This document shows, piece after piece, positions 2 through 11,236 of a DNA stretch of 11,236 nt. The DNA is from Willaertia magna (lineage: Eukaryota; Heterolobosea; Eutetramitea; Acrasida; Naegleriidae), in assembly GCA_902984215.1 (NCBI GenBank), contig CADWAF010000753.1, positions 1-11,236 on the forward strand, in the 5' to 3' direction. The notes under the pieces were generated by a model. That model had not been told where the DNA came from. It saw only the letters and a list, made by a program, of their open reading frames with translations, and searched no databases. Every line of letters starts with the position of its first letter. The stretch's first letter is position 1. The position numbers and the translations under genes were made by a program.

Positions 2-553
2 GATGCAAGATTAAGAACTAGATATGGACAATATGCTCAAAGAGATATTGTACAATTTGTTCCATTTAATAAGTTCACTAATCTTCCTTTCACTGCTTTA
101 GCTAAAGAAACACTAGCTGAAATTCCTCAACAAGTTTGTGAATTTATGAGATTGAAAGGAATTACACCTGGTAAGAAAATTGTGACAGAAGAATACATCC
201 CACCTGAACAACAAATACCAAATCCAAATGTTGTCAACCCAAATGTTGTTAATCCAAATGTCACAAACTCAAATCAACAAATGTATCCAAATGTTGTTAA
301 TCCAAATGTACAAAATCAAACCACTCTACAACAGAATTATCAGTATCCTTGTAATATGAATCAACAACCTAATTATCAACAAAACAATATGAACTATCAG
401 CAAAACCATCAACAAGTACCACCACAATCTTATCAAAATAATCAACAACATTACCAACAAAATATGAACTCAGCCCAAAATACTCAACAGATAAATTCAA
501 ACCAACAAAATTATCAATTTCCGCCTAATCAACAACCTCAATACAGAATATAA
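2..553 (+). CDS. Copine family protein, C-terminal part (5'-truncated by window)
   Basis: Copines are Ca2+-dependent phospholipid-binding proteins with two C2 domains and a C-terminal vWA-like domain. They act at membranes in signalling and trafficking, and dictyostelids have several. The frame is open from base 2, so the gene starts outside the window. Visible residues 14-46 carry the family's end-of-domain pattern: RDIVQFVPF, then ALAKETLAEIPQQV and a short tail reading MRLKGITP. From about residue 72 there are five or so N-P-N-V units, followed by about 90 residues that are mostly Gln, Asn, Tyr and Pro, with a TAA stop at 551-553. All Gln codons are CAA or CAG, so UAA is a stop in this host gene. 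Most copines end soon after the vWA domain, so the tail is a lineage-specific extension. Plant RGLG ubiquitin ligases share this domain end, but no RING domain follows here. The Met codon at 146 is internal, not the true start. Confidence 0.85.
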   Translation, partial: DARLRTRYGQYAQRDIVQFVPFNKFTNLPFTALAKETLAEIPQQVCEFMRLKGITPGKKIVTEEYIPPEQQIPNPNVVNPNVVNPNVTNSNQQMYPNVVNPNVQNQTTLQQNYQYPCNMNQQPNYQQNNMNYQQNHQQVPPQSYQNNQQHYQQNMNSAQNTQQINSNQQNYQFPPNQQPQYRI

Positions 554-1243
554 AGGTAATAAACAATTATTTTAGAATAGTTGGCTTGTAAATTTAATTG
601 ATTTTCATTTACTATTTGTAAATTTTGTAATTCTTTTAAAATTTCATATCTATCGTTTGTCTATGTCCATAAATTATTTAAAAAAGCTATATATAAATTA
701 TTTTTTTTTAAATTTATTAATAAACTATTTAAATATTTTAAAATAATAAATAAAACAAAATATAATAAAAATAATCTTATATTAAAAGTTAATTTATTTA
801 AAAATAGAAAATTTTTAAGGAATATTAAAAAAGATATTAAAAATATTAATAAAATAATAAATAAATAATATGTTTCTAAATAATATATTAATTATAAAAA
901 AAAATAATAAATTTTAAATATTAATATTAAACAATAAAAATTAAACAATATTTTTATTAATATGTTAATTAAAAAAAATTTAAAAAAAATAAAAAATTAT
1001 AAAAAAAATTAGTAAAAAAATTGTTTTAAAAAAAATGAATATTAAAAGGTAAATAAAAAATGTTAATAATTTATTTATAATTTAAAAAAAAATTAAATTT
1101 GTAATAATAATAAGTAAAAATTTTATTTAAAAATAAATGTTTAATTTTTTTTGTTATAAAATCAACCCAGGTTAAATGACTGATTGTTATTTAATAAAGA
1201 AATTTAAATAATTTTATTAATTAAAATAAAACAAATTTTAATT
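554..1243. other. AT-rich intergenic DNA, no gene seen
   Basis: About 690 bases of nearly pure A+T lie between the copine stop and the first decayed gene. I see no open frame, RNA gene or ordered repeat. One less AT-rich island at about 1162-1188 (ATCAACCCAGG and following) stands out but matches nothing I recognise. The copine polyadenylation signal would fall in the first 200 bases, but A-rich hexamers are too common to choose one. Confidence 0.6.
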
Positions 1244-3778
1244 TTATTCTATATATAAATTAAAATCCTGTCTTTTAATATTTAAATTTAAATTATTCTT
1301 ATTATTTTTATAATACTTATTAATAACTAAACATTTCTAAATTAAATTTAAATTTTTATTTATAATAAATTTTTTAATTATATTATCATTATTTTCATAA
1401 AAAATGTCACTATTAATATAATTAAATATTTCAATAAAATCATTTATTCTTTTTATATTTCTTTTAAATTAATAAATTTAATATAATTATTAACAAATTT
1501 ATTATCATTATTATTATTTTTAAAATTTTGTCTTATCTTTGTAAATAAAGATTTAGATTATTGTTGTTGTTGATTAGAAATTAATTGTTGTTATAAAGTA
1601 TTTAATTAAGTTTATAAAAGATTAAATTAATTATTTTGATTAGTAATAATTTGTTATAATTTAAAATTAAATTATTGTTCAGTATTATTTAAATTATTAA
1701 TAATGAAATTTAATTTATTATTTAATTTATTTTTAAGAGTTTTTATTTGTTAAATTAATAAATTAAAAGTTAAATTAAAAGAAATAAAAGAATTGAATGT
1801 ATTTAAATAATTAAAATAATTATTATTACTAATAAATTCTATAAATATTAATTAATTGAGAAAATAATTAATTAAATTTAAGAATTTTAAAAGAGAAAAT
1901 ATTTTATTTATTATTATTTAGTGAATTTAATTTAAATTTATTTTTAAATTTTTTATTTTAAATTCTTTTCTTTATTATTTTTTCTCTTTTTCTTTTCATC
2001 ATTACTATCAATACTATTATTGACCTGTCTATTGTTATTATTAAAATTATTATGATTAAATAATATTTTGATTGATTTTTTTTAAATTGATTTGTAAAAA
2101 AATTAATTTAAATTTAACTTATATAGTCTTTAATAAAATATTATTAATTTGTATTAATTATTGTATATTATAATTTTTTTTTGAAAATTAATAGTATTTT
2201 TAATTAAAATTAAAAATTATAGATAGTTAAGTAAAAAATTAATAAAAATATAAACAATAAAAATAATAAATATTATTTTTAAAATTTTAAAAATAAATAA
2301 TCTTTTAAAATATAATTCAATTAAAAATAGATTTTATTTTTAAAAATTAAAAATATTATTAAATAATTAACAATAATAATTATATTAAAATCTTAATATA
2401 TAAAAAACATTATTTATTTTATCTATTATTTTATAATAATATGATTAAAATGTTATTAATTTATTTTTTAAATAATAAGATTTTTATATTTATTTTATTA
2501 TTTATTATGAAATTTTATTTTTAATTTAAAGTTCTTAGTTTTTAAAATATTATTTAATAAATTATATTATATTTGAGTAATTATAAATAAAATATATTTT
2601 TTTAAAATTAAAAAACTCATTAATTATACTTACTTTTATTTTTTTATTATTGTTAACTTTATAAGGGTTAGATTAAGTTTAATGGATTACTTTAAAATTA
2701 ATCTAGTTTTAAGAATAGTCATTTAGATTATTTTTAACGTTAGGGACAGTAAAGAAAATAATAGTTATTAAGATAGGAAGATATTATAAAAATTTTAATA
2801 AATTTACATTTTTTACAAAGTTGTAACATTTCATTTTTTAAAAGGTATTAGGTTAAGAAGAGTTAAAAGAGGATTGGTTTTTATATTTTTAAAGAAAATT
2901 TAAAGTTAGGTTGAAAACAAGAAAAGATTATCAAAAATTACTAACTGATAATGTTGTAGTATTTGAAATAGAGGAAAAGGGGTTTGGTAATTAGTAATTG
3001 AATAAAATATAACTTTATTTAAACCACAATATTTTATTCTTCATTAAAAATTAATTTTAATATCAAACCATTATTAAATAGTAAACCAGCTTTAAAATAT
3101 AAAAAATTAACATCTTTATTATTAATATAAATAATACTTTCATCTATTTCTTTCTAAGTTAATTCAATATCTTTATTACAACATTTACAATCAAAACCTA
3201 AAGAATTAAAATCATTATATTGAATAAATAATTCAAAACTTTTTGAAAATGTAATTGTATTTAAAAATTTGTTATAAAATCTAATTAAATTACCTCTTGT
3301 ATCTTCTTTAAATCCTAAAAGTGAGTCACAATGATAATTAATTAATGATAAAAATTTAATTATAATACAATTAGATTTATTTGTATTAAAAATAAAAGAA
3401 TTATATGTAAATAAATTTTTATTTGTAGAAATTAAATAAAAAGGTAAATCATTAATTATTTTTTTACTTTTTAAAACTAAATCAACTTTTATAAAAACAG
3501 ATCATCCTAAATTTTTTTTTTAAATAAATAATTATTTAAAACAATTTTAATATCTTTTAATAATTCTCTAAACTGTTTTTCTTTTTTACTTCTACAAATT
3601 ATAATCTTTTTTAATCTTTCCTTTCATTAACAATTAAAGATAAATCATTTTTATAATCTTTTAATTTATTTACTTCATTTAAAATCCTTTCTTATACATA
3701 AATCTTAACATCTTGCTTCTTTTCACTCTTACAAGATGAACTAACATAAAAATTACGTTTTTTATTAAGGTTAATCAT
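1244..3778 (-). pseudogene. Decayed gene for a long protein with a Cys cluster and a Gln-rich coiled-coil tail
   Basis: I do not recognise the family. Reading the minus strand from the ATG at 3778-3776, protein-like sequence continues almost to 1244, about 840 codons. The frame changes near 3620, 3510, 2885, 1981 and 1453. A charged N-terminal region comes first. A well-preserved stretch at about 3505-3020 includes a C-x-C-C cluster (codons at 3189-3178), a possible metal site. A Ser/Asn/Gln region follows, then hydrophobic and Tyr-rich segments, and finally a Leu/Gln-rich coiled-coil-like segment (about 1800-1560) ending in a Gln tract. In-frame stops are mostly TAA, a few are TAG, and one TGA (3504-3502) sits where Trp would read well. 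This pattern fits CAA/CAG to TAA/TAG and TGG to TGA. Joining the two halves (above and below about 2885) into one gene is inference; they could be two genes. Confidence 0.55.
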
Positions 3779-4135
3779 TTTTTTAATATAAAATTTATGT
3801 TTTTTTGGCTAATATTTTTATTTAATAAATATTATTTAACTATTATTTCATAAATATGTTAATTTTAGTATAATATATGCGGTTTTTAAATTTTGTTAAA
3901 AAATATATATAAATAAGGAAACTGGAAAAATAATATAAAAAATATTTTTTTGGCTAATCTTTTAAAATAATAACTACTATATAAAGTTAAAATTATAAAA
4001 ATATTTAAAAATTAACTATCTATACGGCTTTCAATTTTAATTTTATAGAATTCACAATTAAAAAACTTTTCATATAAATATTTATAAATACAAATATAAA
4101 AATTACAAATAAAAATTAAAAAATACATTTATATA
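3779..4135. other. AT-rich spacer between two decayed genes, with a repeated 14-mer
   Basis: This gap lies between the end of the protease-like pseudogene and the ATG of the next minus-strand pseudogene. It is very AT-rich. The minus strand can be read without TGA through to 3777 if TAA is ignored, but the product is low-complexity Phe/Ile/Tyr and not convincing. The gap probably held the promoter of the downstream gene. Its only ordered feature is the repeated T-run plus GGCTAAT motif, listed separately. Confidence 0.45.
3800..3958 (-). repeat. Two identical 14-mers (minus-strand ATTAGCCAAAAAAA)
   Basis: TTTTTTTGGCTAAT on the plus strand occurs exactly at 3800-3813 and again at 3945-3958. 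A 15-base variant with one extra A is at 4179-4193. In DNA this poor in G and C, two perfect copies containing GGC are unlikely by chance. Both exact copies lie upstream of the minus-strand ATG at 3778, so a regulatory site is possible. The third copy falls inside the end of the protease-like frame. Confidence 0.5.
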
Positions 4136-5523
4136 AAAAAATTTTATTTATTATTATCTTTCTTTTAATAAAGTTCAATTTTTTTAGGCTAATTCATTAC
4201 AAAAGTAAATAATTTTTATTTTTTTCTTTCACGTAATTCAATATTAAAAAAATAATTTTAATAAAATGATTAATTACTATCATCAATAATTGAATAGTCA
4301 TTAAAAACTATATATCTTAACCATTCAATTACATAAAAACCACAATTAGTATTATTAAATTATATAACCTTTATAAATCTAATAACTTTAGCTTCTTCTT
4401 TAAAATTCTTTTCTTCTTTATAAAAAGTATAATATAAAGTTTTTATTAAATCAATATAAATTTCAATAATAGAGTCTTTTAATTTTTAGTTTTTAATACT
4501 AGTAGTATATAAATTAATTAAAGTATTTAATTTTGCACTTAAATTACTTTCTAATTTCCAATAATATAAAAATTATAAAAAGCTTTATTTTTTTTAAATA
4601 TTACAACATTAAAATAAATACTATAATAATAAAAATCATCTCAAAAATTAAAAGCAATTATTTTATTACAATTAATCCACTGTTAAACATATTTTAAAAT
4701 ATTTTCTTTTCTTATATTCTTTATTTTTTTATTAAAAGGTTTTCTATATTAATAAATAAATTATTAAAAATTATTTTTAATATTAAAAAACTTACATTAT
4801 ACCAACTAACAAAATAAATACTCTTCTTTTAACTAATTCTAAGTATTTACTTTTAAGAATTTCTAAATAAATAAAAAATAAATCAAATATAAATATTGAC
4901 ATTAAATAATTAGATTTAAACATTTTCAATATTTTAATTTCTCTAATTTCACCAATATAAATTATTAACAATAGAAATTCTTTAGCATTACTTAAATTTA
5001 AATTTAAATCCTTTTCCCTTATCACTTACAATTCTTTTTCATTTGCTTTATTAAAATAAAAATTATACATATTACTAAATAATTTTTGTATAAAATTATT
5101 TAAACTATTATTTTGTAGTTTATTATAATTTTTAGGTTTAATTGATAGAATAATAATTGATTATGAACTTATTATATTTTTAAAAAATTCTTCTTTGCTG
5201 CAACCAATATTATTTATTTTTTAAGTTGTATACATATGATTAAAAGTTTTTTTTGTAATAATTAAGTTTTCTTAGGATGATTAATATTTATTAAATATTT
5301 AACTTTTATTATCATTAAAAAAAGAAATTACTAAAATAGATTTAATTTTTTTAAAATTAATAGATTTTTTTTTTTCAACTTTTCTTTTCTTTTTATCTAC
5401 AGTAGATAAATTTTTATTTTTATTATTATTTTTTAATACTATTTTCGATGTTTTTTGTTAATTTATAATTGTATTATCAATATTTGTTTTAATAATTTTT
5501 TTTGTTCTATCACTTTTAATTTT
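4136..5523 (-). pseudogene. Decayed Ulp1/C48-like cysteine protease gene
   Basis: C48 proteases cleave SUMO-like or viral and transposon polyproteins with a His-Asp-Cys triad and an upstream Gln that forms the oxyanion hole. Here NTNCGFYVIEWLRY has the shape of the family's N-x-x-D-C-G-x-[FY]-V box, with the Cys codon at 4344-4342. Exactly six codons upstream, where Ulp1 has its catalytic Gln, stands TAA (4362-4360). Further upstream, a Trp (4679-4677) and the run KIIAFNF lead into YYYSIYFNVVIF, matching the strand that normally carries the catalytic His. Tyr is found there, possibly from CAT to TAT. The first 243 or so codons (5523-4796) form one frame with only TAA stops, then come an intron, exon 2, and one frameshift near 4570. 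About 20 TAA, one TAG and one TGA (4643-4641) interrupt the gene. The ATG is not certain. The intron shows it is not a retrocopy. Confidence 0.62.
4744..4795 (-). other. Probable 52-nt spliceosomal intron in the protease-like pseudogene
   Basis: On the minus strand the segment begins GTAAGT (4795-4790) and ends TATAG (4748-4744), with AT-rich sequence between. Removing it joins two otherwise different reading frames exactly: an AT left by the upstream exon plus the next A gives an Ile codon, and the Ulp1-like reading continues toward Trp 4679. Both splice sites match the GT-AG consensus of AT-rich dictyostelid introns, although this one is short. Confidence 0.6.
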
Positions 5524-6024
5524 TTCATTTTTTTACCATTATTTTTTTAGTGATAAAAATAAATTAAAAAAATTTTAGAGTAAATTTTTTTAAAGTTATT
5601 TTTAGATTGTTTAATGAATTAATTTAATAATAAAAAATAGTACAAATAGACAAAAAAGGTAATATAAAACAATTTATATTTATTATAACTATTACAACTA
5701 CTACTAACACTACTTCTAACACTACTACTATTACTACCAATACCACTATAACAAACAATTCCATTATTTCCGAAACTAAATAATCAGATATTATTTTATC
5801 TTTTATATTAGATTCATTTTTTTTTAAATAAATATTCCTTTACAAAAAAATAATAAATATAATTCTAATAATGATTTCATATCAAACATAATAAAAAAAC
5901 ATAAAAATAATTAACAACATAAAATTTAAAATCCAAATAATGTAAAAACAACATTTGTTAACAATAATGAAAAAAAAAATCAACCATAAACTGGTATTTA
6001 CAAAAATAGTTATTGTCTTAAATA
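5524..6024. other. AT-rich stretch with an ACT-rich simple sequence, no gene assigned
   Basis: At about 5689-5745 the plus strand is a degenerate run of ACT, AAC and ACC triplets. Read forward it gives a Thr/Asn-rich peptide, typical of dictyostelid low-complexity tracts. Read backward it gives Ser-rich sequence in one frame and a run of TAG/TAA in another. Neither strand gives a recognisable protein here. The minus strand near 5620-5540 could be an upstream extension of the protease-like gene, but it contains too many stop codons to claim. Confidence 0.4.
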
Positions 6025-6480
6025 TTATTTATTAAGTATTTTTAAAACAAGATTAGAATTGGCCGATTTTTGTATTAAATTATTAAATTTATCAATAGAA
6101 ACATCACTGGTTTCTGAAATATATAAAAATTAATATGTAAAAATATTTTTATATGTAAACCTTAGTAGTAAATTAAAAACAATATCTCCAATTTTTACTT
6201 TTTCTTTTACTGTTCCTTCTTTAAGTAAATCTTTAATATCTGTTGTAATATTAATTTTTATTAGTACTTCATTTTTTTTAAACTTTAAACAAAAAACTAT
6301 AGTTACCCCAAATCCATTTATCTAATCACAAGAAATTAGTAGAATAAAAAGTAATAATCAATCTTTACTTTTTATTAATGAAAGTAAATTGGGTGGGTTT
6401 GGGTTTGGTGTATCAATTGTATCAATTCACCAGACCCTACCATATTTTACCATAAAAGGAAATTTTTTTAGTAAGTACAT
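6025..6480 (-). pseudogene. Decayed small gene of unknown function (about 150 codons)
   Basis: From the ATG at 6480-6478 one minus-strand frame runs to a TAA at 6027-6025 with no frameshift. It is interrupted by TGA (6429-6427 and 6360-6358), TAG (6324-6322) and TAA (6132-6130). The product begins MYLLKKFPFMVKYGRVW, has a Pro/Asn patch, then a Lys/Glu/Val-rich part (EGTVKEKVKIGDIVF). That part looks like true coding sense; the opposite strand reads as Ser/Phe/Ile-rich antisense. An alternative start is the Met of MVKYGRVW. The stops fit Gln or Arg codons hit by C to T, and Trp codons hit by G to A. No family is recognised. It lies upstream of the protease-like pseudogene on the same strand and may have belonged to the same element. 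Confidence 0.45.
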
Positions 6481-6691
6481 AACATGAAGTTTCACCTATA
6501 TTCGAATCAAAGGCTGATATACAGTAAATAAAAAGTTATAATATAGTAACTTACTTTTGTATATTTTTTAAAAAATGAACTATGAATTTTATATTTATTT
6601 TTATAAATAATATTAAATAAAAATAATAATAATTTACATTAAATTATTAAATTAATATATATAAATAATATTTATTTAGTTTATATAATAA
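6481..6691. other. AT-rich spacer between the decayed block and the intact cassette
   Basis: No open frame or ordered repeat is visible. A less AT-rich patch at about 6485-6525 includes TTCGAATC, which recalls a tRNA T-loop, but there is no matching stem or acceptor. The boundary between the old and young blocks lies here or at the following repeat array. Confidence 0.45.
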
Positions 6692-6775
6692 ATTAACTAA
6701 AGTACATTAACTAAGGTACATTAACTAAGAGACATTAACTAAAATACATTAATTAAGATACATTAATTAAAATAT
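6692..6775 (+). repeat. Left array: six direct 14-bp repeats
   Basis: The units run ATTAACTAAAGTAC, ATTAACTAAGGTAC, ATTAACTAAGAGAC, then three more divergent copies, with perfect 14-bp spacing from 6692 to 6775. The first unit is identical to a unit in the right array (11110-11123), and the two arrays have the same orientation. The array sits 63 bp beyond the stop codon of the acidic-protein gene. Possible roles are protein-binding iterons, an origin or partition site, or element ends. Confidence 0.85.
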
Positions 6776-6838
6776 AAATACAAAAATAAATAATTTTTAA
6801 CCAAAAGAACCCTTTTATTAATAATTTTAATTACAATT

Positions 6839-7573
6839 TTAATATTCAATATTCATTTCTTCATTTTCTTCATTTTCTTCATTTTCATCTAATTCACTTT
6901 CTTCCCATTCTTCTAATTCTTCATTACTTTCTTCCATTTCTCTATTTTCAAATAAATCTTTAATCCAATCTTCTATTTCTATATTTCCTTTATTTCTTTC
7001 ATTACAATATTCTTCAATTTCTTCATGTAGATCAATATTATTTAAATTAGTGTCACTTAAATTATCTTCTAATAATTGATCTTCTTGTCCTTCTAATCCA
7101 CCAATACTTTCTTCAATTTCATTATCTTCTAATTGTGGCTCAATTATATCACCAGTAATATCTTCTTCATAATCAATTAAATTAAATACCTCACCAAAAT
7201 ATTCCAATTCTAATTCTGAACTATTTGGAATATCAATAGTCCAACTACCTCTATTTCTTTGAACAGATTCTTTAAAATAAATAAAATCATTAACCCCAAT
7301 ACAATTTAATTGTCTGGTATTATCAGCAATATAAAAAAGCTTTTCTATTCTATTTTTATCAATACTCTTTAAATATTTTAATGCAGCACCTTTAATTTCA
7401 AATATATTTGCATCTACACCTTCATCTAATCTTCTTTTAATCCATGTTTTAATATTACCTGTACTTTGTTTTTCAGTACCATAATAATTATCTAATGTAT
7501 GCCATAAAAAACAATAAACACCTTTAACAATAACTACCGGAAGAGAGTAAAAATCACTATATTGTTCACTCAT
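6839..7573 (-). CDS. Unrecognised 244-residue protein with a highly acidic C-terminal half
   Basis: No family is recognised. Residues 1-125 look like a compact mixed domain: a hydrophobic start (LPVVIVKGVYCFLWHTLDNYY), then a basic patch with WIKRRL and an A-L-K-Y-L-K helix. From about residue 130 to the end the sequence is dominated by Glu and Asp, finishing in repeated EEN units. There is no signal peptide or clear membrane segment. The gene is transcribed divergently from the H3-like gene, with 160 bp between the start codons. That gap holds two inverted-motif pairs, one only 4 bp upstream of this ATG. Long acidic tails are common in histone chaperones and other chromatin proteins, so a role in handling the neighbouring histone is a reasonable guess. 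Transcription activation is an alternative. The start is supported by the A-rich context before ATG and by the nearby motif pair. Confidence 0.8.
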   Translation of the reverse strand: MSEQYSDFYSLPVVIVKGVYCFLWHTLDNYYGTEKQSTGNIKTWIKRRLDEGVDANIFEIKGAALKYLKSIDKNRIEKLFYIADNTRQLNCIGVNDFIYFKESVQRNRGSWTIDIPNSSELELEYFGEVFNLIDYEEDITGDIIEPQLEDNEIEESIGGLEGQEDQLLEDNLSDTNLNNIDLHEEIEEYCNERNKGNIEIEDWIKDLFENREMEESNEELEEWEESELDENEENEENEEMNIEY

Positions 7574-7577
7574 TTTT

Positions 7578-7682
7578 TTCTAAGATACTTTAATAATTTT
7601 TTTTACGTCCCTTAGTACTTCAAAATTTTTTTTGAACCTTTGTACTAAGGTACATAATAATAAAAAATAATGTACCTTAGTA
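7578..7682. promoter_or_regulatory. Divergent promoter region with two inverted 13-14-13 motif pairs
   Basis: Pair 1 has arms at 7578-7590 and 7605-7617 (9 of 13 bases complementary). Pair 2 has arms TACTAAGGTACAT at 7643-7655 and its perfect reverse complement at 7670-7682. In both pairs the spacer is exactly 14 bp. They occupy most of the gap between the acidic-protein and H3-like start codons, so a dimeric protein bound here could control both genes. Confidence 0.75.
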
Positions 7683-7733
7683 ATTTTATAACGGTTTTTT
7701 ATTAATAAAAATTATATTTATAATTCAAAAAAA

Positions 7734-8213
7734 ATGGGCAAAACACCAACTCCTAAACCTTCACAAGCCAAAAAGGCTCCTCGTAAAAAAATAGTTGCAC
7801 CTAATAAACCACCAATTCCTTCATCCTCAACCGACAAAACTAAAAAACCAAAAACTAACCAAAACACTAATGCACTAAAAGAAATAAGAAAATATCAAAA
7901 ATCTACTGATCTTCTAATTCCAAAAAAGCCATTCATTGATTTGGTTAAAGAAACAATGCAAGATATGTCTGAAACTCACGGGGTTCCATCAAATGATAAA
8001 AGAATTCAAGCTGTTGCATTACAAGCAATTCAGTCAAGTGCTGAAGATTATTTAGTTGAAATTTTTGAAATTGCAACTGAATTAACTGTACATGCTAAAC
8101 GCAGTACTTTATTGGACAAAGATTATCAGTTAGCTGTTAGATTAGTTGAAAGATTTACTAAACCAGCTATTAATTGTGCTGCTACTAAAAGATGTATGAA
8201 TTTAAATAAATAA
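7734..8213 (+). CDS. Divergent histone H3 variant, centromeric-H3-like
   Basis: The 159-residue protein contains a full H3 histone fold. Residues 47-77 (ALKEIRKYQKSTDLLI, then KPF, LV and QDM) match the H3 alpha-N and alpha-1 region. Residues 90-136 match alpha-2 and alpha-3, with AVALQAIQ, AEDYLVEIFE, HAKRSTL and KDYQLAVRL. Loop 1 between QD and RI is about seven residues longer than in canonical H3; a longer loop 1 is a hallmark of centromeric H3. The 46-residue tail is basic and Pro-rich and keeps a KAPRK motif like H3 positions 14-18. It lacks the ARTKQTARKS start and the ARKS motif around Lys27. About 20 residues extend past the usual H3 end. Dictyostelids have divergent H3 variants including a centromeric one, so this could be the host's own gene. 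Its flanking motif pairs are shared with the recombinase gene, which favours the cassette. ATG follows eight A's, a typical dictyostelid context. Confidence 0.9.
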   Translation: MGKTPTPKPSQAKKAPRKKIVAPNKPPIPSSSTDKTKKPKTNQNTNALKEIRKYQKSTDLLIPKKPFIDLVKETMQDMSETHGVPSNDKRIQAVALQAIQSSAEDYLVEIFEIATELTVHAKRSTLLDKDYQLAVRLVERFTKPAINCAATKRCMNLNK

Positions 8214-8234
8214 TTTTTTTTTTCATTTTTTTTT

Positions 8235-8330
8235 AACTAAGGTACATTAATATTTATTCATATGTACCTTAGTTTATGTACCTTACTTATTATAAAGGGA
8301 CATAATAATAATAATTAATGTACCATAGTA
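8235..8330. promoter_or_regulatory. Two inverted 13-14-13 motif pairs in the convergent 3' gap
   Basis: Pair 3 is perfect: AACTAAGGTACAT at 8235-8247 and its reverse complement at 8262-8274. Pair 4 has arms at 8291-8303 and 8318-8330 (9 of 13 complementary). Both spacers are 14 bp. An extra half-site, ATGTACCTTA, starts at 8276. The pairs lie between the convergent 3' ends of the histone and recombinase genes, where a promoter is not expected. This argues for a role other than transcription initiation, such as recombination, replication, insulation or termination. Confidence 0.75.
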
Positions 8331-8382
8331 TAAAATGACAAAAAAAAATAAAAAAAATATATATTAATTAATTAATATATTT

Positions 8383-10767
8383 TTATTTATTATATTTTTT
8401 AGCTAATTCTTTTTTTTGTTGTTTATGTTTAAATATTAAATTTAATTTTTCTTCTTCTTGCTTATCAATTAACTTTTGTAATTCTTCTTCATATGTTAAT
8501 TGATTTATTGTTTCTTTTTGTTTTTTTTGTTGCTTTTCAAATAAAGTTAATAATGGTGAAATTATTTTTCTTTTTGTTTGTTTAATTGGTGATTTTGCTT
8601 GTTCATCTATAATTTTAGTAAAATCATCTAATCCTTTTTGTTTAATTAAATCATAATATATTTTATCATTCCATTTAGCAATTAAATCATTACCTCCTAC
8701 AACTTGTTTAAAAGATCTTTTACGTTCTCCAAATAATTGACTAGTAATAGCTAATTTCATACCAATTAATTTTCTATAATCTGGTAAATCTTCCCAACCT
8801 GATAAAGTATCACAATGTTCATTAGTTACAGATCTCCATAATGTTTGCCATACATTACCTTTATTCTTTTTAATACTTTTACGTTCATTTAAATATAAAT
8901 TTAATTTATCATTTTTAATAATATAGTATAATCTCATTTTCTCAGTAGGACTCTTTTTAGCTAAAGTAATTTTCCAATCAGTATTAATTCTTTTAGAATT
9001 ATTTATGTCTAAAGGAATATAACCATTATTATAAATCATTTCTTTTAATTGTTTCTTATTTAAATCTTTAGTATTTCCAACATTATGAATTGATGGAATA
9101 TAATTATCGTCTCTAATTTCTTTAATTAAATCATTTAAAATTATTTGATTACTGTCTTTTTCATGTAGTTCCAAAATTGCAGTAACATTATTATATTTAG
9201 TAACAATCCAACGAACATAAGGTAACATACAAATTTTATGTTTCCATCCAATATATTGTACCATAGTATTAATTGTTTCTTCTCTAATTCTATTATTATT
9301 AACAATATCCTCTAAAAAAGCTTGGCATAAACAGCCTGCTCTTAAAGAACGAAATGTAATACGCCAACTTGGATCTACAATTTTACTAGCATTAATAATA
9401 GTATTACTTAAATCTTTACTTGTAGCCACTAATGTAGTACCTGGTTTAGTAAAAATTGGTTCTAATTCACATCCTTTTTTATATTTAAAATTACCTGTTA
9501 ATAAAACAGAAGCACTATCTCCTGCTTCAAATACTTGTCTTTCATCTGCAAGATATAAAAGTAATGCTACATTAGCACATCTACTAATATCTAATTCACC
9601 TGTTGCTGTTTGTAATCTTGGTTCAGTCATTAATACTTTATCTTTAATTATTGTTAAATCAGTATTAATTAAAATCCATTTATCTGAAATTATATGTTTC
9701 TTCCAAGTTAAATAATGTAATTTAGCATATTCCCATGAATCAGCTCTTAAACCTCTTAAACGTCCTTGTTTTAAAATTGCATTAGTTCTAGTATTTCTAA
9801 CAGTTGTTAAATCTAATGATTGACAAATTGCATCTCTAAAATAATTAATACATGGAGTTACTTTATCAATATTATTACCAAATTTACGTAAAAAACCACG
9901 TAATATGCCTCTTAAAAAATTACCATATTCTTTCATTGGATCACCTAAATCATTATCTTTACAAATAGCACATAAATTATGTAAAAATACCCAATTACAA
10001 GTACTATGACTATATTTCTTTGTCTTTCTCATTTCATATAAAAATGCTCCAAAAGTATACTTTTGAATAGGAAAAGGATTTGGTTGATATTCCATAAACT
10101 TTCTATCATAACGTTTACTATTGTAAAATGTTTTATAAGCACGTGCTGCATAATTACGTAAATAAATAGTACCGTCAGATAATCTTTTTTCATAAATTTT
10201 ATCAATCTGTTCTTTAGCTAGATCAAAATCTTCATCTAAATCTTCAATTTCTTCTTCATTGTCTTCATTAATAGATTCAATAATTGGAACATTTTTCTTT
10301 AGTACTTCTTTAATTGGTTCCATTGTTTCAAACATTGCTAAAAATTTGTTTCTGTTATTATTATTATTATTAGAAATAACTGGAATGTTTCTATTATCAA
10401 AACTAAGATTAACAGTAGAAGTAGAAGTATTATTAGACATTTGTGAAGTATTTAATCTAGAATTATCATAATGATAATCATCTAAAGAAGCACCTGTAAT
10501 TTGTTCACTAATTCTATCAATAGTTTGTTCATTTTGATTTTCAAAATAAAATGGATCATCTGGAAGATTATCTATTTGTTGAATAGTTTTTCTAAAATCT
10601 AATTCAAATTCCGTAAAAACACTTTGTTCATCTTCATTTAATAATTCAGATAATGTAGGAACTGGTTGAGATTGATTATTATAATTTGGTGTTGGAATCA
10701 TTGCTTTTTTTTTAATTATTTTTTTTATATAACGATTTTTTATTTTAAAATGAGCGGGCTTATTCAT
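8383..10767 (-). CDS. Tyrosine recombinase (integrase), 794 residues
   Basis: Tyrosine recombinases cut and rejoin DNA through a covalent Tyr-DNA intermediate. The active-site region is visible in the C-terminal half of the catalytic domain. ITFRSLRAGCLCQAFLE (471-487) corresponds to the H/R-x-x-R-A-G box, with Arg476 as the second catalytic Arg and Arg473 where His is usual. IGWKHKICMLPYVRW (506-520) corresponds to the G-x-W block plus nucleophile, giving Tyr517. The first catalytic Arg is probably in the segment around DISRCANVALLL (393-404). Residues 30-190 are Asn/Ser/Glu-rich and look disordered. Residues 205-360 are basic and may form the core-binding domain. Residues 600-720 form another folded-looking part, and 740-794 is a Lys/Glu/Gln coiled coil. 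The box order resembles DIRS and Crypton enzymes, but no reverse transcriptase is present here. The Met at residue 23 is an alternative start. The gene is intact, and its upstream region carries the cassette motif. Confidence 0.8.
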   Translation of the reverse strand: MNKPAHFKIKNRYIKKIIKKKAMIPTPNYNNQSQPVPTLSELLNEDEQSVFTEFELDFRKTIQQIDNLPDDPFYFENQNEQTIDRISEQITGASLDDYHYDNSRLNTSQMSNNTSTSTVNLSFDNRNIPVISNNNNNNRNKFLAMFETMEPIKEVLKKNVPIIESINEDNEEEIEDLDEDFDLAKEQIDKIYEKRLSDGTIYLRNYAARAYKTFYNSKRYDRKFMEYQPNPFPIQKYTFGAFLYEMRKTKKYSHSTCNWVFLHNLCAICKDNDLGDPMKEYGNFLRGILRGFLRKFGNNIDKVTPCINYFRDAICQSLDLTTVRNTRTNAILKQGRLRGLRADSWEYAKLHYLTWKKHIISDKWILINTDLTIIKDKVLMTEPRLQTATGELDISRCANVALLLYLADERQVFEAGDSASVLLTGNFKYKKGCELEPIFTKPGTTLVATSKDLSNTIINASKIVDPSWRITFRSLRAGCLCQAFLEDIVNNNRIREETINTMVQYIGWKHKICMLPYVRWIVTKYNNVTAILELHEKDSNQIILNDLIKEIRDDNYIPSIHNVGNTKDLNKKQLKEMIYNNGYIPLDINNSKRINTDWKITLAKKSPTEKMRLYYIIKNDKLNLYLNERKSIKKNKGNVWQTLWRSVTNEHCDTLSGWEDLPDYRKLIGMKLAITSQLFGERKRSFKQVVGGNDLIAKWNDKIYYDLIKQKGLDDFTKIIDEQAKSPIKQTKRKIISPLLTLFEKQQKKQKETINQLTYEEELQKLIDKQEEEKLNLIFKHKQQKKELAKKYNK

Positions 10768-10773
10768 TTTTAA

Positions 10774-10843
10774 AACTAAGGGTCTTTAATTTTTATTTTT
10801 TTGTCCCTTAGTTAAATAATATTTAAATTTAACTAAGGGACAA
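10774..10843. promoter_or_regulatory. Recombinase promoter region with three motif arms and a 16-bp palindrome
   Basis: Arms at 10774-10786 and 10801-10813 (10 of 13 complementary) form a fifth pair with the same 14-bp spacer, starting 7 bp upstream of the recombinase ATG. The middle arm also forms a perfect 16-bp inverted repeat with a third arm: TTGTCCCTTAGTTAAA at 10801-10816 and its exact reverse complement at 10828-10843, 11 bp apart. The arms here read AAGGGACA rather than AAGGTACA. Being so close to the start codon, the site could mediate autoregulation of the recombinase. Confidence 0.75.
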
Positions 10844-10955
10844 TAAAATTCTTATTTAATCTAAAGTACATAAATTGGATCTAAGTAAAATTTATTAATA
10901 TAAAGTAATAAATTTATCAAAATTGATAATAACATATGTTTTTTAATTATAGTAA

Positions 10956-11165
10956 ATTAATTGTAATACATTAATTATAGTATATTAATTATAGTACATA
11001 AACTATAATACATAAACTAAAGTACATAAACTGAAGTACATAAACTAAAGTACATAAACTGAAGTACATAAACTAAAGTACATAAACTGAAGTACATAAA
11101 CTAAAGTACATTAACTAAAGTACATAAACTATAGTATATAAACTATAATACATAAACTACAATAC
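10956..11165 (+). repeat. Right array: fifteen direct 14-bp repeats
   Basis: Units with strict 14-bp spacing run from 10956 to 11165; a degenerate copy may precede them at 10942. The commonest units are ATAAACTAAAGTAC and ATAAACTGAAGTAC, which alternate from 11012 to about 11109. This gives a 28-bp higher-order unit and suggests recent duplication. Outer copies are more diverged. Orientation matches the left array. The array starts about 190 bp upstream of the recombinase start codon. Confidence 0.9.
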
Positions 11166-11176
11166 ATTTTGCTTTT

Positions 11177-11236
11177 GGGTTTATAATATTTTTGGGTTTG
11201 GGTTTATAATATTTTTGGGTTTATAATATTTTTGGG
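11177..11236 (+). repeat. G-rich 17-bp tandem repeat running off the window
   Basis: GGGTTTATAATATTTTT occurs at 11177-11193, 11200-11216 and 11217-11233, with a short GGGTTT at 11194-11199 and GGG at the window edge. It begins 12 bp after the last 14-bp unit. The array continues beyond the window, so its size is unknown. The G-runs on one strand recall telomere-like or structure-forming repeats, but the unit matches no telomere repeat I can name with confidence. Confidence 0.8.

Follow-up and report, generated by a model that had tools for sequence, protein, structure and literature searches.

Can a mobile element of the eukaryotic nucleus carry and supply its own histone? This question is raised by a contig of Willaertia magna (Heterolobosea; assembly GCA_902984215.1, CADWAF010000753.1), which was analysed over its whole length of 11,236 bp and is referred to here as the window or C235. 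Between two direct arrays of a 14-bp unit it contains three open reading frames (ORFs), which encode an acidic protein of 244 amino acids (aa), a histone H3-like protein of 159 aa and a recombinase-like protein of 794 aa. We interpret the cassette as a recombinase-type mobile element of telomeres or subtelomeres that carries its own H3 variant, perhaps with a chaperone, and makes its own chromatin; to this interpretation we give a probability of about 0.55. The genome searched was an assembly of 19.24 Mb in 894 contigs, which are short, and gene links reaching off a contig would escape detection. The excerpted text of a genome report for W. magna T5(S)44 gives 47.6 Mb and a guanine-cytosine (GC) content of 24.7% (PMC11702301), so the assembly used here is either partial or from another strain. 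A first-pass annotation, made from the letters alone, had assumed a dictyostelid host. This was rejected, as protein searches with the recombinase-like and acidic proteins gave only Willaertia magna among the named relatives.

The acidic protein is encoded at 6839..7573 (minus strand), the H3-like protein at 7734..8213 (plus strand) and the recombinase-like protein at 8383..10767 (minus strand). Besides these genes, the sole ORF of at least 60 aa in the cassette is an antisense ORF of 70 aa. The left array, of AACTAAGGTACATT type, has 5.7 units (6692..6771, plus strand), and the right array, which partly alternates between ACTAAAG and ACTGAAG, has 16.1 units (10943..11168, plus strand); both share the same orientation. 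With up to two mismatches, CTAAGGTACAT occurs 4, 4 and 3 times in the three inner gaps, against about 0.07 expected in each, and none of these counts was equalled in 2000 dinucleotide shuffles; 3 occurrences were found in the 3600 coding bases. The exact 12-mer ACTAAGGTACAT was found 8 times in the 19.24-Mb genome, 5 times within the window (reversed control 0), and the three other copies are at chance level because base composition predicts 2.5–3.7 genome-wide. A two-unit array pattern with three mismatches allowed gave 11 genome matches, all 11 of them in the window (reversed control 0). The ORFs, the arrays and the gap counts therefore agree with the first-pass description of three intact genes between direct arrays of the same motif, with the motif in every gap. 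An inverted repeat of the motif, with 16-nt arms and an 8-nt spacer, lies in the divergent gap between the acidic and H3-like genes (7643..7682); a second, with perfect 13-nt arms and a 14-nt spacer, in the convergent gap between the H3-like and recombinase genes (8235..8274); and a third, with 23-nt arms (96%), a 9-nt spacer and the motif oppositely arranged, upstream of the recombinase gene (10795..10849).

For the H3-like protein, Pfam Histone (PF00125) matched residues 8–137 with E 7.4e-30, and the matches in the PDB were H3 and CENP-A-type chains with a best E of 2.1e-23. Judged from sequence, the assignment to H3 is solid, and the H3 variant of the first-pass annotation is borne out. Relative to host H3, loop 1 carries an insertion of seven residues, the protein has a C-terminal extension, and the ARKS motif is missing from the tail at both sites where host H3 carries it. 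A tail of this kind would escape marks placed on ARKS. Of 84 core residues, the variant has 45 in common with the canonical host H3 (on C471) vs 38 with a host CenH3 candidate (on C696); ten core residues are common to the variant and the CenH3 candidate and not to the canonical H3, while 17 go the opposite way. A clear CenH3 is thus not supported, the core being nearer to canonical host H3, and an unrooted tree of six sequences with long branches did not settle the origin of the variant. The genome has further H3 matches on C471, C186, C493 and C696 and a pair on C312, all of which are host-type genes. The CenH3 candidate itself (C696:6511-7509) has 327 aa and a long N-terminal tail. The two matches of C312 are divergent H3 variants, adjacent to each other at the contig end (C312:139301-140506) and about 129 kb away from the recombinase copy of the same contig.

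The acidic protein is a candidate histone chaperone. It has 65 Asp or Glu residues vs 20 Lys or Arg and a net charge of −45, with almost the whole of it beyond residue 120, in line with its earlier description. Its only database relative, Willaertia magna ABK040_014408, is identical to it except in two gaps and at a single residue bordering a gap. The database protein is without 17 residues that lie between GT and AG borders, in a stretch where the reading frame of the window is open; this larger gap is perhaps a mispredicted intron. The protein might serve as a dedicated chaperone of the H3 variant.

The 794-aa protein shows the constellation R341, K375/K377, R473xxR476, G507-W508 and Y517-x-R519. 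This is the R-K-(H/R)xxR-(H/W)-Y order and spacing of tyrosine recombinases (YRs), with a W-to-Y distance of nine residues, as in Cre, and with R instead of the customary H at the first position of HxxR. We take R341, K375/K377, R473, R476, W508 and Y517 to hold the catalytic roles. In eight aligned relatives R341, D343, K375-D376-K377, R473, G507-W508 and Y517-x-R519 are invariant, and the best, insignificant hhalign alignment pairs GW...YxR with the same region of Cre. From this residue pattern the protein is likely a tyrosine recombinase, as it had been named at first; a significant match in Pfam, NCBIfam, PHROG or PDB did not follow (see below). Protein searches returned an identical entry (772 aa), an ENA protein at 42% and a Willaertia magna protein at 37%, and a profile-based database search repeated the same three. 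The 37% relative found only matches of 39–48% among the ORFs of the contigs that carry recombinase relatives.

The evidence for a unit comes from a second copy: the genome has two sites at which the three genes occur together with the left array and the gap motifs. At C663:3845-6372 the acidic, H3-like and recombinase genes stand in the same order as in the window, matching window positions 6460-6728, 6869-8288 and 8354-9314 at 80–86%, and the left array and gap motifs are present in decayed form. The flanks differ from those of the window, and the match ends inside the recombinase gene, at the equivalent of 9314, beside a piece of another repeat. The first-pass annotation had proposed to look for the cassette genes together elsewhere, and on C663 they do recur, with array and motifs, between other flanks. 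As homology with the second copy begins at 6460, the element probably extends to the left of the arrays. Its putative edges are placed at 6409..11168 (no strand assigned), which gives a size of about 4.8 kb; GGGTTT-type sequence flanks these tentative ends on both sides.

The two copies differ mainly by one kind of change. Relative to the window, the share of G/C to A/T differences in the C663 copy is 98 of 106 in the H3-like gene (2 in the opposite direction), 98 of 114 in the acidic gene (7 opposite) and 120 of 138 in the recombinase part (10 opposite), with indels besides. C-to-T change has reached 56–71% of cytosines on both strands and in every dinucleotide context (CT 128/227, CA 157/249, CC 65/105, CG 17/24). 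Without C>T/G>A changes and indels, the copies differ at 13 of 479 aligned bases in the H3-like gene, 18 of 704 in the acidic gene and 20 of 834 in the recombinase part; they are otherwise close, as these remaining differences amount to 2–3%, which speaks for recent copying. Among the leftover changes, 8 of 13 are synonymous in the H3-like gene vs 2.3 expected (reached in 0 of 5000 simulations) and 9 of 18 in the acidic gene vs 4.1 expected (P 0.005), small numbers on which, as on the 20 of the recombinase part, these tests rest. The synonymous excess points to purifying selection on the H3-like and acidic proteins during divergence.

The mutation itself resembles repeat-induced point mutation (RIP): in a heterolobosean, about 60% of cytosines have turned to T with other substitutions near 2–3%. 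In a limited survey, the accessible literature on RIP-like mutation dealt with fungi, and none was met for Heterolobosea. Zones of 5–14% GC were seen in the window (560-6390), in C663 (4–9 kb) and in C846 (70–74 kb).

The recombinase is not confined to this cassette. Relatives were found on 15 contigs, the window included, and fall by sequence into several families: A (window and C663), B (C846 and C312, with pieces on C551 and C408), C (C360, C546 and C178), D (C504, C378 and C423) and a further group of C192 with C358, while C52 and a second piece on C551 were left out of the classing. The partner ORFs of families B to D differ from those of family A. The first-pass annotation had considered that recombinase copies elsewhere might never be linked to an H3-like gene. 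This did not occur, owing to C663, but C663 is only one of 14 other recombinase contigs, so that the linkage is seen on 2 of the 15. In family B, TTTCCTTATTTGTCC has three exact genome copies, all in three gene gaps of an element on C846; allowing one mismatch adds 11 copies elsewhere, including 2 on C312 (reversed control 2). That a private gap motif recurs in a second family suggests a putative binding site for an element-encoded protein. This sister element (C846:75029-83115) is at least 8 kb long and includes a recombinase-like gene, a 1165-aa ORF and others, and a decayed copy lies at C312:3000-11337. None of ten sister-element proteins passed the Pfam cut-off.

The surroundings of the cassette point to chromosome ends. 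It lies on the outer, contig-end side of an interstitial telomere-type tract, TTGGGTGGGTTTGGGTTTGG (6389..6408, plus strand, with GGGTTTGGGTTTGG at 6395-6408), which lies at the proposed left edge of the element and points outward, and the contig ends in TTTGGG and TTTATAATATTTT repeats (11167..11236, plus strand). In the genome GGGTTTGGGTTTGG has 47 occurrences on 32 contigs. All 16 contigs with plus-oriented matches have it in their right half, and 14 of the 16 with minus-oriented matches have it in their left half, five minus contigs of unstated length having been scored as left from matches at positions 2–59; it is within 200 bp of the expected end on 8 plus and 10 minus contigs. Because the tracts mostly sit in the contig half to which they point, (TTTGGG)n is probably the telomere repeat of this genome. 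No published telomere sequence for Naegleria or Willaertia was found in the accessible literature of a limited survey. Terminal TTTGGG was also noted at C781:5-87, the longest run seen, C846:83140-83156 and C178:1-20. The 20-mer GGGTTTATAATATTTTTGGG was considered as a general chromosome-end repeat and rejected, since with up to two mismatches it has three genome matches, all of them in this contig.

Other elements also meet such tracts. On C846, 24 bp separate the final ORF of the element from the terminal TTTGGG tract; on C360, the recombinase frame runs into such a tract. Repeat pieces stop at TTTGGG tracts on C663, C218 and C682, and so does the recombinase of C378. GC is lower inward of the outer elements: 6–9% vs 16–26% on C846, 9–14% vs 22–26% on C235, 10–20% beyond 6 kb vs 23–29% near the tract on C360, and 7–8% vs 16–22% on C781. 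This layering, fresh outside and AT-mutated inside, is as expected from repeated insertion at chromosome ends and is suggestive of it. As a separate observation, a junction with GGGTTTGGGGGAAAT follows telomere-type tracts at four sites (the C378 end, C493:76013-76040, C521:1-20 and C265:1-21), and C604 and C767 share another tract flank; these shared junctions hint at further telomere-associated repeats.

Taken as a mobile element with its own chromatin, the cassette would work as follows. The putative tyrosine recombinase would direct insertion at or beside TTTGGG repeats, perhaps via a circle, and an element-encoded protein would recognise the private 14-bp motif of the arrays and gaps. The acidic protein may deliver the H3 variant, which, with both ARKS sites absent, could build chromatin on the element that is not subject to host subtelomeric silencing, mark the arrays, or both. 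Older elements would become buried inward and mutated.

A number of observations weigh against this reading. In the recombinase, searches of Pfam, NCBIfam, PHROG and PDB gave no significant recombinase family match, hhalign comparisons with Cre and the lambda, P2 and HP1 recombinases were not significant (E 0.4–0.6), R476 is replaced by H in one of the eight aligned relatives, and an AlphaFold model from a three-sequence alignment is unusable because its mean predicted local distance difference test score (pLDDT) is 37. The leftover changes of the recombinase part show no synonymous excess (4 of 20 vs 4.0 expected), and the recombinase of the outer C846 element contains stops. The C663 copy is without the right array and the N-terminal part of the recombinase, and neither an empty site nor a circle was seen in the assembled contigs. 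The motif is not simply a promoter element, since it is also present in a convergent 3′ gap. With respect to location, tracts lie 4.8–19 kb from the expected end on 6 of 32 contigs (C235, C378, C815, C210, C682 and C767), and those on C682 and C767 point the wrong way; the reversed-pattern control for TTTGGG carries no information, since the repeat reads nearly alike in reverse; breaks of assemblies at repeats bias contig-end location in part; and gene content confounds the GC layering. Finally, the chaperone and anti-silencing roles are conjectural.

The main rival also starts from a telomere element, but assigns to the H3 variant and arrays a centromere-like or tethering partition complex for an extrachromosomal form, of which the chromosomal copies would be by-products. 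CENP-A-type histones have a longer loop 1, and that of the H3-like protein is seven residues longer than in host H3; the ten core residues shared with the CenH3 candidate and the direct iterated arrays on both sides are of the same tendency. The 17 core residues of opposite sense and the overall count of 45 vs 38 run the other way, no circle or free form was seen, and the database entries for the recombinase and acidic proteins each give 146,065 bases for their longest contig, presumably one and the same, so that this copy is probably chromosomal. The plasmid-like form considered at first is likewise not supported. The accessible text of a 2025 study, which found the 2-micron plasmid to be without Cse4 enrichment, notably at STB (PMC11962162), contradicts the CENP-A recruitment at that plasmid on which the first-pass parallel was built, and the lack of Cse4 there weakens the analogy for partition. 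Chromatin protection accounts for the absence of the two ARKS motifs no less well than a segregation role would, and we consider partition rather unlikely. The core of the first-pass proposal, a selfish nuclear element that brings its own chromatin factor, is retained, as our preferred reading shares it and the second site supports it; the plasmid form and the 2-micron/CENP-A parallel are not retained.

It is improbable, too, that the locus is a duplicated subtelomeric cluster of host genes, namely an H3 paralogue, an acidic protein and a domesticated recombinase, spread by exchange between ends and without mobility of its own. Subtelomeres swap segments freely, the truncated C663 copy abuts a fragment of a different repeat near a telomere-type tract, and the H3-bearing unit is known in two copies only. 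Nevertheless, the recombinase relatives on 15 contigs fall into several families whose partner ORFs differ, and this and the private gap motif of the sister family argue for the organisation of an element rather than for duplication of host genes. Descent from a DNA virus, virophage or Polinton-like element is very unlikely. Histones and tyrosine recombinases do occur in such viruses, and the available part of the W. magna genome report treats the species as a known or potential giant-virus host, with one capsid gene in its genome (PMC11702301). Among the cassette ORFs, however, the ORF list and Pfam gave no capsid, packaging or polymerase gene, and scans of viral contigs, which had limited sensitivity, confirmed none of 36 recombinase and none of 17 H3-like pattern matches; a scan of bacterial and archaeal genome contigs gave no pattern match. 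Going beyond the mobile element with its own chromatin, one may tentatively propose a new class of heterolobosean telomere elements with an orphan recombinase and arrays of their own, one family of which captured H3, evolved a chaperone and evades silencing and C-to-T mutation. This wider proposal is doubtful.

Among the closest known systems, the yeast 2-micron plasmid, a selfish nuclear circle with a recombinase and an iterated locus and without a histone gene, resembles the cassette as a selfish nuclear element with recombinase and iterated DNA, and differs in its circularity and in the H3 gene carried here. Starships, the giant transposons of fungi, join a large recombinase gene with other genes; they are far larger and fungal, and Pfam found no matching domain in the cassette. 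MoTeR of Magnaporthe and HeT-A and TART of Drosophila, which live in or at telomeres, are retrotransposons and are not known to carry a recombinase or a histone. CENP-A/CenH3 proteins share the H3 fold and the longer loop 1, whereas the core here is nearer to canonical host H3.

Two further groups of elements encode YRs. The accessible part of the Crypton literature describes a YR without reverse transcriptase, with an added C48 peptidase in some oomycete members, and YR sites with inverted repeats of 11–13 bp and spacers of 6–8 (PMC3212892). The cassette is similar in having a recombinase-like gene (YR by residue pattern) without reverse transcriptase, extra genes and 13-nt arms. It differs by the lack of detectable sequence relation to a YR family, by spacers of 8, 9 and 14 nt, and by its histone, acidic protein, iterated arrays and telomere-side location. 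Cryptons have short direct repeats at their two ends and lack terminal inverted repeats; in the window, GGGTTT-type sequence stands on either side of the tentative ends. TATE, according to the available text, is a YR-encoding retrotransposon of kinetoplastids that inserts at one position in telomeric hexamer repeats (PMC6681497). TATE/VIPER-like elements resemble the cassette in encoding a YR, which the cassette does by residue pattern, and TATE also in its proposed telomeric site; TATE has a reverse transcriptase and RNase H, neither of which was found among the window ORFs (ORF list and Pfam), and no histone. Kinetoplastids and Heterolobosea both belong to Discoba. In a limited survey of open-access literature, as far as its accessible texts go, no histone-encoding transposon or plasmid was described.

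If the preferred reading is true, the cassette would be a direct case of a selfish element editing the composition of chromatin, beyond merely exploiting it. One H3 variant, one acidic protein and one array would make a small system for asking how variants and chaperones are targeted to DNA. It would also join telomere biology, genome defence by C-to-T mutation and transposon evolution in a little-studied eukaryotic lineage.

Inward of the cassette lies a decayed piece of a different multicopy element (2630..6390, no strand assigned) with a GC content of about 12–14%. It has 85% identity to C521:46-3794 and C546:2241-6025 and also matches pieces of C781, C360, C663, C218, C409 and others (115 matches, many of them short and of low complexity). 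C360 and C546, which share this repeat, each also have a recombinase relative. The region 2409-3808 was considered as part of the cassette, and the arrangement it has in C663 as proving a circle; both were rejected, as the region belongs to the separate multicopy element. A fragment of the latter at C781:4728-5003 has by eye the look of a C48-type peptidase, judged by what we take to be the motif of that family, and Pfam did not confirm it. At the inner end of the window, outside the element, lies the 3′ end of a copine-like host gene (2..553, plus strand; Pfam Copine PF07002, E 3.3e-10).

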